A DNA stretch of 64,000 nucleotides from Asticcacaulis excentricus (GTDB lineage: Bacteria > Pseudomonadota > Alphaproteobacteria > Caulobacterales > Caulobacteraceae): contig NZ_AP018827.1 in the NCBI RefSeq assembly GCF_003966695.1, positions 310,001 to 374,000 of the forward strand. Direction: 5' to 3'. The notes under the pieces were generated by a model. That model was not told where the DNA came from. It made no database searches and worked only from the letters and a program-made list of their open reading frames with translations. This document shows, one piece after another, positions 47,941 to 52,591 of the stretch; the first letter of the stretch is position 1; every line of letters starts with the position of its first letter. The position numbers and the translations under genes were made by a program.

Positions 47941-48702
47941 CTACAACCCTTCCATATCCGGTGTCTTCCAGCCCAGATGCTGGCCCGAATCGACGCAGAT
48001 CATCTGACCGGTCACAGAAGGGGCTTCGGCCAGAAACACCACGGTCTCGGCGATCTCTTCGGGCGTGACCCGCTTTTGCAGCAGGGTCGAGGCGGCCTCG
48101 GCCTCGAAATCGGCCTCGGTCTGGTGAATGGAGGGCAGGGTGGGGCCCGGCCCGACGGCATTGACGCGGATACGCGGGGCCAGTCCCTGCGCCAGAGTGC
48201 GCGTGGCGTGCCACAGCCCGGCCTTTGACAAACCGTAGGAGAAGAAGGGCGGGGAGGGTTTCAGCACCCGCTGGTCGATCAGATTGACGATAGCCGCCCC
48301 ATCAGGCAGAGCGCCTTGCGCCGCAAACCCCTGCGCCAACAGGACGGGGGCCAGCAGATTGGTGTTCATGTGGGCGTGCCAGCGGTCCACCGTCAGCGTC
48401 CCGGCGCGGTCATCGAAAAAGACAGACGCATTGTTGATCAGCAGGCTGAGAGGGCCCAGAGCGGCCACGGCCGCGGGGATGAGCGCCTTGACGCTGTCGG
48501 CGTCCGACAGGTCGGCCTGAAGCGCTTCGGCCCGCACACCTGAGGCGCGCAGTTGCTCGACCAAACCCTGCGCATCGGCAGCGGAAGTGCCGTAATGGAC
48601 GCCGATATCGTAGCCCCGTTTTGCCAGCGCGAAGGCTACGGCCCTGCCGATGCGTTTGGCCGCACCGGTGACCAGAGCGATTTTGGGAGCCGGTTTAGTC
48701 AA
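47941..48702 (-). CDS. Short-chain dehydrogenase, pteridine-reductase-like
   Basis: 253-aa classical SDR. Cofactor motif TGAAKRIGRAVAFAL (about 11-25), the Arg of which suggests NADPH as in FolM/PTR1; NNASVFFDD, catalytic YGLSK (Tyr-x3-Lys) and VNAVGPGPTLPS. Likely a dihydrofolate/dihydromonapterin reductase, by similarity in pattern. Start: TTG at 48702, whose codon lies within the last codons of the upstream miniprotein gene, so translation is probably coupled. The frame extends to 48756, but the N-terminus there would be encoded by the miniprotein gene. Confidence 0.85.
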   Translation of the reverse strand: MTKPAPKIALVTGAAKRIGRAVAFALAKRGYDIGVHYGTSAADAQGLVEQLRASGVRAEALQADLSDADSVKALIPAAVAALGPLSLLINNASVFFDDRAGTLTVDRWHAHMNTNLLAPVLLAQGFAAQGALPDGAAIVNLIDQRVLKPSPPFFSYGLSKAGLWHATRTLAQGLAPRIRVNAVGPGPTLPSIHQTEADFEAEAASTLLQKRVTPEEIAETVVFLAEAPSVTGQMICVDSGQHLGWKTPDMEGL

Positions 48703-48775
48703 TACGGCCAAAGTCGATATAGTTGACGATGAAATAGAAGGCGATGAAGCCCGCAAAAATGCCGATGGCCAGCAT
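48695..48775 (-). CDS. 26-aa hydrophobic miniprotein overlapping the SDR start
   Basis: ATG at 48775 preceded by a strong GGGAG ribosome site 7 nt upstream. The product begins MLAIGIFAGFIAFYFIVNYI and ends DFGRID: one membrane helix with a short polar C-terminal end. Its TAA (48695-48697) overlaps the SDR TTG start (48700-48702) by 8 nt in another frame, the geometry of translational coupling. Such a short frame could arise by chance, but ribosome site, pure TM composition and coupling argue for a real gene. Function unknown; it could be only a leader peptide for the SDR. Confidence 0.7.
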   Translation of the reverse strand: MLAIGIFAGFIAFYFIVNYIDFGRID

Positions 48776-48832
48776 GTGAGATCTCCCGGTCAGTCCTGTT
48801 TTTATCTGATTAAGCGCCTCTTACGGCGAACT

Positions 48833-48905: not shown

Positions 48906-49385
48906 ATGAACATGGAAGACTGGAAGCGCCTCGTCGAGCCGTACACCCGGCCGTTGTTCTTTGCTCATTCGCGCATGACGCGGGGCAAGACTCTGGGTGT
49001 GCGCGGCCTTGTGGTCGAGGATGAGCGTCGCGTTCTGCTGATCGAGCACACCTATCTCGAAGGTTGGTGGCTGCCCGGTGGCGGCGTCGATGCCTTTGAG
49101 GCGGCGGGCGACGCCGTGGTGCGCGAACTGCGCGAAGAGGCGGGGATTATTGCTCGGGAAACACCGCGCCTTCTGTCGATCCATTCCAATGAACGCTTCT
49201 TCCCCGGCGATCACGTGCTGCTCTATCGCATTGACCGCTTCGAGCGCGGCGAGCTGACCTCGCAAGGGGAAATCAAGAATGTCGATTTCTTCGATATTGA
49301 TGCCCTGCCGGACAATATCAACGGCGGCTCTTTGCGGCGGATACAGGAAGCTCTGCAAGGTCTGCCGCCGGACCCGCTGTGGTAG
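48906..49385 (+). CDS. Nudix hydrolase
   Basis: 159-aa pyrophosphohydrolase. The Nudix box GGGVDAFEAAGDAVVRELRE-EAGI (about 58-81) fits G-x5-E-x7-REUxEExGU with all metal-binding Glu present. Substrate (nucleoside diphosphate-X) not predictable; the short form with WWLPGGG is a housecleaning type. The 3' end overlaps the convergent acyltransferase gene by 68 bp, unusually long. Confidence 0.9.
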   Translation: MNMEDWKRLVEPYTRPLFFAHSRMTRGKTLGVRGLVVEDERRVLLIEHTYLEGWWLPGGGVDAFEAAGDAVVRELREEAGIIARETPRLLSIHSNERFFPGDHVLLYRIDRFERGELTSQGEIKNVDFFDIDALPDNINGGSLRRIQEALQGLPPDPLW

Positions 49386-50674: not shown

Positions 50675-52591
50675 ATGTCCGACCTGCCGACCGACGCCTT
50701 ATCCGAAACCCTCCCGACCGATGCGCCCCTGACGGGGGCGGCTCTGATCCTGCGTGAAGCGCGGCTGGCGGAAGACAAGCCCGGCGTCTATCGCATGATC
50801 GGCGAAAACGACGAGGTGCTCTATGTGGGCAAGGCCAAGTCGTTGAAAAAGCGCATCCTTCAGTACGCGCAGGGGCGCGTCCATGCCCAGCGTATCGCGC
50901 GCATGGTCTATCTGACGCGATCCATGGTCATTGTGCGCACCCAGACCGAGGGCGAGGCCCTGCTGCTGGAGGCGCGCCTGATCAAGGCGCTGAAGCCGCG
51001 CTACAATGTGCTGCTGCGCGACGATAAGTCCTTTGCGGAGATTCTGGTGCGCAAGGATCACGCGGCAGCTCAGATCACCAAGCACCGTGGAGCCCACGCC
51101 ATTCAGGGCGAATATTTCGGTCCCTTCGCCTCGACCCAGGCGGTGAACCGTACCCTCGATACGCTGCAACGCGCCTTCCTGCTGCGTACCTGCACCGACA
51201 GCGTCTATGCCTCGCGCACGCGGCCGTGCATGTTGCATCAGATTCGTCGCTGTTCGGCACCCTGCACTGGTGAGATCAGCCTTGAGGATTACGGCGCATT
51301 GGTGGGACAGGCCGAGGCCTTTTTGAAGGGGCGTTCGCGCGTCGTCATCGACGACCTGACCAAACGCATGATGAAGGCCTCCGACGATATGGACTTCGAG
51401 AAGGCGGCGCATCTGCGTGACCGCGTGCGAGCGCTCAACCACGTGTCCATGACGTCTTCCATCGGCATCGGTGAGGCCGAGGCGGACGTGTTTGCCGTGG
51501 TCAGCGAAGGCGGAGCGGCCTGCGTGCAGACCATCTTCTTCCGGGCGGGGCAGAACTGGGGCGACCGCGCCTACTTCCCGCGCGTGCCCGACAGCGGTGA
51601 AGAGACGGACAACGCTGAGGGCGAAATCCTCGATGCCTTTCTGGGGCAGTTCTATCAGGACCGCCCGGTGCCGAAGCTCATCCTTGTCTCGCACCCCCTG
51701 AGTGAACCGGACCTGATGATGGAAGCCCTGTCGCTGCGCGCCGGTCGTAAGGTCGATATCCATTGCCCGCGCCGGGGCGAAAAGGCCGACGCCGTGGCCC
51801 ATGCCCTCAACAACGCCAAGGCGGCGCTGGGCCGGCGCATGGCCGAACAGTCGGCGCAGACGCGCCTGCTGAAAGGCGTGGCGGAGGTGTTTGAGCTGCC
51901 CGTCCCGCCCAACCGCATCGAGGTCTATGACAACTCTCACCTCGGTGGCACGCACGCGGTGGGGGGCATGGTGGTGGCTGGCCCCGAAGGCTTTATGAAG
52001 GGGCAGTATCGCAAATTTACCATTCGCGACCTTGATAAGGTGACCGCCGGTGACGACTACGCCATGATGCGCGAAGTGTTCCGCCGACGGTTTTTACGTC
52101 TGAAGAACCGTGCGGAAGATGCGACGGAAGAGGAGGGCTTTGGCCGTCCCGATCTGGTGCTGGTCGATGGCGGGCAGGGGCAACTGGAGGCCGTTCTGGA
52201 CGTGATGCGCGAACTTGGCATGGAAGACATCCGCATTGTCGGCGTGGCCAAGGGGCCGGACCGCGACGCGGGTATGGAGCGCTTCTTCATGCCGGGACGT
52301 GCCCCCTTCATGATGGAGCCCAAATCGCCGGTCCTCTACTATCTTCAGCGCCTGCGCGACGAAGCGCACCGCTATGCCATCGGAGCCAACCGCCAGAAGC
52401 GCGACGCGGCGATTACCAAAAACCCGCTGGATGAGATCGAAGGCATCGGTCCCCGCAAAAAGCGCGCCCTGCTGGCCGCCTTCGGGTCGGGCCGTGAGGT
52501 GGGCAAGGCGCGTATCGAAGACCTGCGCAAGGTGGAGGGCATCAACGAGGCCCTAGCCCAGCGTATCTACGATTTTTTCCACGGCGCGTGA
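50675..52591 (+). CDS. uvrC: Excinuclease ABC subunit C
   Basis: 638-aa nuclease making both incisions in nucleotide excision repair. GIY-YIG domain about 30-120 (GVYRMIGENDEVLYVGKAKS), Cys-rich segment TRPCMLHQIRRCSAPC, UVR motif (IDDLTKRMMKASDDMDFEKA) for UvrB contact, endonuclease V-like domain with IEVYDNSHLGG and LVLVDGGQGQL, and C-terminal tandem HhH (IEGIGPRKKRALLAAFG). Monocistronic. Confidence 0.97.
   Translation: MSDLPTDALSETLPTDAPLTGAALILREARLAEDKPGVYRMIGENDEVLYVGKAKSLKKRILQYAQGRVHAQRIARMVYLTRSMVIVRTQTEGEALLLEARLIKALKPRYNVLLRDDKSFAEILVRKDHAAAQITKHRGAHAIQGEYFGPFASTQAVNRTLDTLQRAFLLRTCTDSVYASRTRPCMLHQIRRCSAPCTGEISLEDYGALVGQAEAFLKGRSRVVIDDLTKRMMKASDDMDFEKAAHLRDRVRALNHVSMTSSIGIGEAEADVFAVVSEGGAACVQTIFFRAGQNWGDRAYFPRVPDSGEETDNAEGEILDAFLGQFYQDRPVPKLILVSHPLSEPDLMMEALSLRAGRKVDIHCPRRGEKADAVAHALNNAKAALGRRMAEQSAQTRLLKGVAEVFELPVPPNRIEVYDNSHLGGTHAVGGMVVAGPEGFMKGQYRKFTIRDLDKVTAGDDYAMMREVFRRRFLRLKNRAEDATEEEGFGRPDLVLVDGGQGQLEAVLDVMRELGMEDIRIVGVAKGPDRDAGMERFFMPGRAPFMMEPKSPVLYYLQRLRDEAHRYAIGANRQKRDAAITKNPLDEIEGIGPRKKRALLAAFGSGREVGKARIEDLRKVEGINEALAQRIYDFFHGA

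Follow-up and report, generated by a model that had tools for sequence, protein, structure and literature searches.

Upstream of an SDR oxidoreductase gene of Asticcacaulis excentricus lies a 26-codon open reading frame (ORF) whose last codons overlap the start of that gene. Does this ORF serve only to hand ribosomes on to the SDR, or does it encode a protein that acts in its own right? We analysed the ORF in the window, that is, the whole 64,000-nt stretch of DNA under study, and followed it through sampled genomes of the genus, family, order (Caulobacterales), class and phylum.

Organization of the miniprotein locus

The ORF (positions 48695–48775, minus strand) runs from ATG to TAA and encodes MLAIGIFAGFIAFYFIVNYIDFGRID. 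A Shine–Dalgarno (SD) sequence, GGGAG (48783–48787, minus strand), lies 7 nt before the ATG, and the final 8 nt (48695–48702, minus strand; TTGACTAA) contain both the TTG start of the SDR gene and the TAA stop of the miniprotein. These features agree with the preliminary description, which had given the coordinates, minus strand, length, start, stop and composition of the ORF, its ribosome site and its 8-nt overlap with a downstream TTG start. The SDR gene (47941–48702, minus strand), of the NF006597/PRK09134 family and pteridine-reductase-like, has no SD sequence of its own. A Nudix hydrolase gene (48906–49385, plus strand) diverges from the miniprotein at a distance of 130 bp and is kept as a neighbour across much of the order; the miniprotein promoter must lie within this gap, and a promoter scan upstream of the miniprotein was uninformative, returning nothing on the minus strand. 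The uvrC gene (50675–52591) is also close to the locus.

The product consists of 26 residues, with a mean Kyte–Doolittle hydropathy of 2.5 over residues 2–17. It has the hallmarks of a single-span membrane miniprotein: a length below 50 residues, a single hydrophobic helix and conservation as an amino acid sequence. The ribosome site recurs in relatives: of 151 distinct family members, 125 have an SD sequence of 4 nt or longer before the ATG, compared with 48 of 302 control windows.

Distribution and sequence constraint

Full-length homologues occur in all 25 sampled genomes of the same genus (E values down to 1e-11). A profile of 19 members matched 197 of 199 sampled genomes of the window's family (E ≤ 1), and a profile of 87 members matched 114 of 120 sampled genomes of the order (E ≤ 0.01), usually as a single copy. 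Across the class, sampled evenly, 31 of 389 genomes matched (E ≤ 0.01), and in a 299-genome sample of the phylum all full-length matches fell inside the order; the two remaining matches were helices within long ORFs. Weak matches inside long ORFs at L046, L058–L061 and L142–L144 (locus numbers of this analysis) were likewise discarded as unrelated membrane helices. A DNA pattern designed to exclude the window's family matched 38 named contigs, against about one estimated by chance, from Rhodobiaceae metagenome-assembled genomes (MAGs), the PS1 clade, the OCS116 cluster, IMCC14465, Mf 1.05b.01, Euryhalocaulis and others. The family therefore reaches beyond Caulobacterales into several alphaproteobacterial lineages of the Rhodobiaceae/PS1/OCS116 type. 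The preliminary description had looked to Caulobacterales for conservation; the peptide is indeed kept across that order, but its range is wider.

A frame not kept in relatives had been named as grounds for refutation; the reading frame is conserved in these relatives. Nearly all homologues have exactly 26 codons, an ATG start and a stop directly after Asp26, and the few members with 28–32 codons owe their length to an N-terminal extension. Among 87 distinct 26-residue sequences, Met1, Asn18 and Asp26 are invariant and Gly23 (82/87) and Arg24 (80/87) nearly so; Phe10 is present in 77 of 87. Equal frequencies of synonymous and nonsynonymous changes had been named as evidence against a real protein; in 35 non-overlapping close pairs we counted 305 changes, 175 synonymous and 130 nonsynonymous, where 86 synonymous changes would be expected without selection (p about 1e-26, treating changes as independent). 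Synonymous changes are thus twice the neutral expectation. The excess is smaller in more divergent pairs, as expected of a helix in which one hydrophobic residue can stand in for another. At the level of sequence comparison, these counts establish that the peptide is conserved and its ORF under purifying selection, with a near-invariant length. The invariant Asn at the helix end, like the G-R-x-D tail, points to a specific contact.

Scans of 36–87 family members against Pfam, NCBIfam and PHROG gave scattered chance matches only, none convincing, and a profile search of the PDB with the family gave no match. Rfam had no hit on the miniprotein locus at the gathering threshold, and a plasmid search with the miniprotein, for which the peptide was doubled to reach a usable length, found none. 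The earlier proposal of a real miniprotein missed by standard annotation is thus strongly supported, with no match in any family library searched: this is an unnamed, widely conserved family of a known kind, the single-span membrane miniproteins. Size and composition resemble those of SidA, and the peptide might accordingly be a SidA-like stress-induced division inhibitor or a toxin-like peptide. However, no LexA/SOS box of the GTTC-N7-GTTC type was found within 250 bp upstream at any locus of the window's family, so that identity with SidA is unlikely, and a gene that is near-universal in the order and usually single-copy also speaks against this reading, which we regard as scarcely credible.

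Overlap with the SDR gene

The conserved start of the SDR is the TTG at 48702, within codons 25–26 of the miniprotein ORF; a second in-frame TTG at 48711, 9 nt further upstream, is not conserved. This overlap places the TTG under a constraint that can be read from a synonymous position. Where the SDR is in frame with the TTG at −8 and there is no start downstream of that TTG, codon 25 ends in T, and so makes the TTG, in 26 of 26 distinct loci. It does so in only 3 of 11 loci that have an alternative SDR start (p = 4e-6), and other Ile/Val codons of the same 26 ORFs end in T in 21 of 160 cases (13%; p = 3e-19); both p values treat related genomes as independent, and the pattern probably has few origins, in the window's genus and genus g3. 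All three genomes of the window's genus that are free of the constraint, one in which the SDR start has moved (L010) and two in which folB comes next (L018 and L024), use ATC at codon 25. A seeming exception, L136, has ATT with folB next, and there folB is in frame with that TTG. Given the T-ending codon 25 and the ATC in the constraint-free genomes, the TTG at −8 is very probably a start in use. The locus offers a clean natural experiment on overlapping starts, in which a synonymous position is fixed only where it forms the start of the next gene.

The geometry of the overlap shifts among relatives. Two other family members have GAT at codon 26, giving a TTG at −4 instead, and elsewhere the start is an ATG at −1 or an ATG at +1; in most miniprotein–SDR pairs it falls within −8 to +14 of the miniprotein stop. 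In all 29 genomes with the overlap the SDR lacks an SD sequence. RNA folding of the junction was weak (z = −1.8), with no convincing sequestering structure. Termination–reinitiation is common for overlapping gene pairs (PMC6728339, PMC10666635); here, an 8-nt overlap of stop and start is combined with a start codon whose use is indicated by the synonymous-codon constraint (26/26 versus 21/160), and this mode of coupling is the likely one. Since the SDR has no ribosome site and its TTG lies inside the last codons of the miniprotein, reinitiating ribosomes would translate it: in the window's genome and its close relatives, the SDR would be read by ribosomes that terminate on the miniprotein. The codon pattern supports the coupling through an overlapping TTG that had been put forward for this locus, a coupling that is probably real but local.

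Could the miniprotein be a membrane anchor or regulator of the SDR itself? Adjacency of the two genes is common in the window's family, and genes that overlap by a short stretch are over-represented among those for subunits of heteromeric complexes (PMC10666635), but many genomes have the miniprotein without an adjacent SDR and outside the order the two are unlinked, making this role quite improbable.

Gene neighbourhoods in other lineages

The genes beside the miniprotein change between lineages. Most of the order's other families have a Na/Ca antiporter gene (PF01699) behind the miniprotein and then the SDR, and the divergent Nudix gene often lies upstream; this arrangement holds in most f2 and f5 genomes, and miniprotein–antiporter in f4 and also in f95, which lies outside the order. 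In the window's family the antiporter is mostly gone from this position, so that the order is miniprotein–SDR, sometimes with folB between. A gene for dihydroneopterin aldolase (folB) lies between miniprotein and SDR in L018, L024, L118 and L136, and its position beside a pteridine-reductase-like SDR points to a folate/pterin operon. In L129, an ORF at about +90 to +1008, counted from the start of the miniprotein, separates miniprotein and SDR; hydrophobic and of the same length and place, it looks like a diverged Na/Ca antiporter, with no Pfam match over its first 200 residues. The gap between miniprotein and SDR in L125 is similar. The antiporter suggests a further reading, in which the miniprotein acts on a transporter as a modulator; the original target would be the antiporter of the Na/Ca exchanger family whose gene follows it in the majority of the order's other families. 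A single-helix miniprotein that regulates a transporter is known (AcrZ with AcrB; PMC7267776), and the shared gene order in f2, f5, f4 and f95 fits. Yet of eight tested genomes of the window's family, four (two of genus g32 and two of g3) carry the miniprotein but lack any PF01699 protein, and we consider this reading improbable.

Other neighbours are convergent. In another family of the order (L154 and L160) the next gene is a convergent pgsA (PF01066). In these two loci uvrC follows pgsA, and elsewhere in that family (also L159, L169 and L188) the miniprotein faces either pgsA or a gene directly preceding pgsA, again in convergent orientation. Outside the order, the arrangement is often tRNA-Pro(GGG), miniprotein, convergent DUF2842 (as in L042 and L079) and then COX15; in another arrangement, the miniprotein lies downstream of DUF2842 and COX15 is divergent. 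The tRNA-Pro(GGG) stands shortly upstream on the same strand in L039, L042, L043, L047, L079, L092, L098 and L110, and is possibly co-transcribed with the miniprotein. A glycosyltransferase-like gene adjoins the miniprotein in some loci, and in L038 a tandem 8-base repeat (GGTCAGTT), in about ten or more copies, comes right after the miniprotein stop.

These contexts bear directly on our opening question. If the ORF were only a cis-acting leader for coupling, its purpose would be to deliver ribosomes to the SDR and any 26 codons would serve. The overlap is real and kept in the genus and part of the family, and none of the 29 overlap genomes has an SD sequence on the SDR, as such a leader would have it. 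Its amino acid sequence, however, is under selection, and it persists before convergent genes to which it cannot be coupled (pgsA in L154 and L160, DUF2842 in L042 and L079), so it is not always upstream of, and co-directed with, a target. The leader peptide proposed as an alternative in the preliminary description does not survive this comparison: the same 26-residue protein is kept where the SDR is not next, before an antiporter, a convergent pgsA, a convergent DUF2842 followed by COX15, or a glycosyltransferase-like gene. Being kept in convergent contexts, the peptide is therefore not an SDR leader, and we judge the leader-only reading very improbable.

DUF2842 and COX15 (heme A synthase) raise the possibility that the miniprotein belongs to a respiratory complex as a small subunit, or helps to assemble one, the heme A/cytochrome oxidase pathway being the first candidate. 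Outside Caulobacterales it adjoins both genes in differing arrangements, and single-helix miniproteins that serve as oxidase subunits are known in several cases (CydX; PMC4325964). COX15 is present in 30 of 30 miniprotein-positive genomes checked, which is weakly compatible with a link to oxidase biogenesis, because COX15 is widespread and the genomes compared were all miniprotein-positive. In Caulobacterales, however, the two genes are widely separated (in the window's genome they are on different contigs), and the neighbourhood may reflect inheritance and not function; a respiratory role is a possibility of the lesser sort. In one single-contig Caulobacter-type genome (G208:C1:1781127-1782088) the COX15 match is split over two reading frames, a frameshift or sequencing error. 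A Maricaulis-type genome with the miniprotein had no DUF2842 match. Neither the antiporter nor DUF2842 was retained as an obligatory partner, some miniprotein genomes having no copy of one or the other; the miniprotein can do without any one of SDR, antiporter and DUF2842 as its neighbour.

Proposed role of the miniprotein

Taken together, we have good confidence that the ORF encodes a real single-span inner-membrane miniprotein, likely a subunit or regulator, from whose end the SDR reinitiates at this locus. The miniprotein would be made from its own SD site and act as a protein. Its predicted layout is a hydrophobic helix of about residues 2–17, with the invariant Asn18 near the helix end, followed by a short polar tail, (D/E/Q/T)-F-G-R-x-D, that is probably cytoplasmic. 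Translation, membrane insertion and orientation, as well as the efficiency of the coupling, are what we infer from these features. By analogy with known miniproteins, its most likely role is that of a small subunit or regulator in a membrane complex, packed against a larger protein of the membrane. More tentatively, it may be an ancient component of a core membrane complex in one alphaproteobacterial branch, one that escaped notice on account of its length of only 26 residues; it would then occur in Caulobacter-type model bacteria and be required for a central function of the membrane, for instance respiration. The branch would, just as tentatively, comprise Caulobacterales, Parvibaculales-type and allied lineages.

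This 26-residue protein keeps invariant positions throughout an order and has no entry in Pfam or NCBIfam, which makes it a clear target for experiments. Ribosome profiling of Caulobacter crescentus identified 94 previously unidentified coding sequences, mostly small (PMC4117421), so translation of the miniprotein can be checked in existing data from that species. Ribosome-profiling and proteomic data exist for Caulobacter, and a partner could be sought there by pull-down.

Comparison with known miniproteins and overlapping genes

SidA, a 29-residue inner-membrane protein of C. crescentus (PMC4211646), is a miniprotein from the same bacterial family. SidA is SOS-induced, whereas no SOS box was found upstream of the miniprotein at the loci of the window's family. 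As in other overlapping coupled pairs, the second start lies inside the end of the first gene and the second gene has no SD sequence (PMC6728339, PMC10666635), but the usual overlap is 4 or 1 nt, whereas here it is 8 nt with a TTG. CydX, CydY and CydZ are miniprotein subunits of cytochrome bd (PMC4325964), and the CydX type shares with our family a single hydrophobic helix, a short length, few conserved residues and conservation over long distances. CydX-type genes stand in cydAB operons, whereas the miniprotein is never beside cydAB in any locus read, and with no convincing Pfam or NCBIfam match it was not assigned to CydX. AcrZ, the single-helix partner of the AcrB transporter (PMC7267776), is a single-span protein shown to pack against a large membrane protein, as is proposed for the miniprotein, which differs in matching no family by sequence and in having a dispensable transporter neighbour. 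By analogy with these two single-helix partners, we propose that the miniprotein may work as CydX or AcrZ does.
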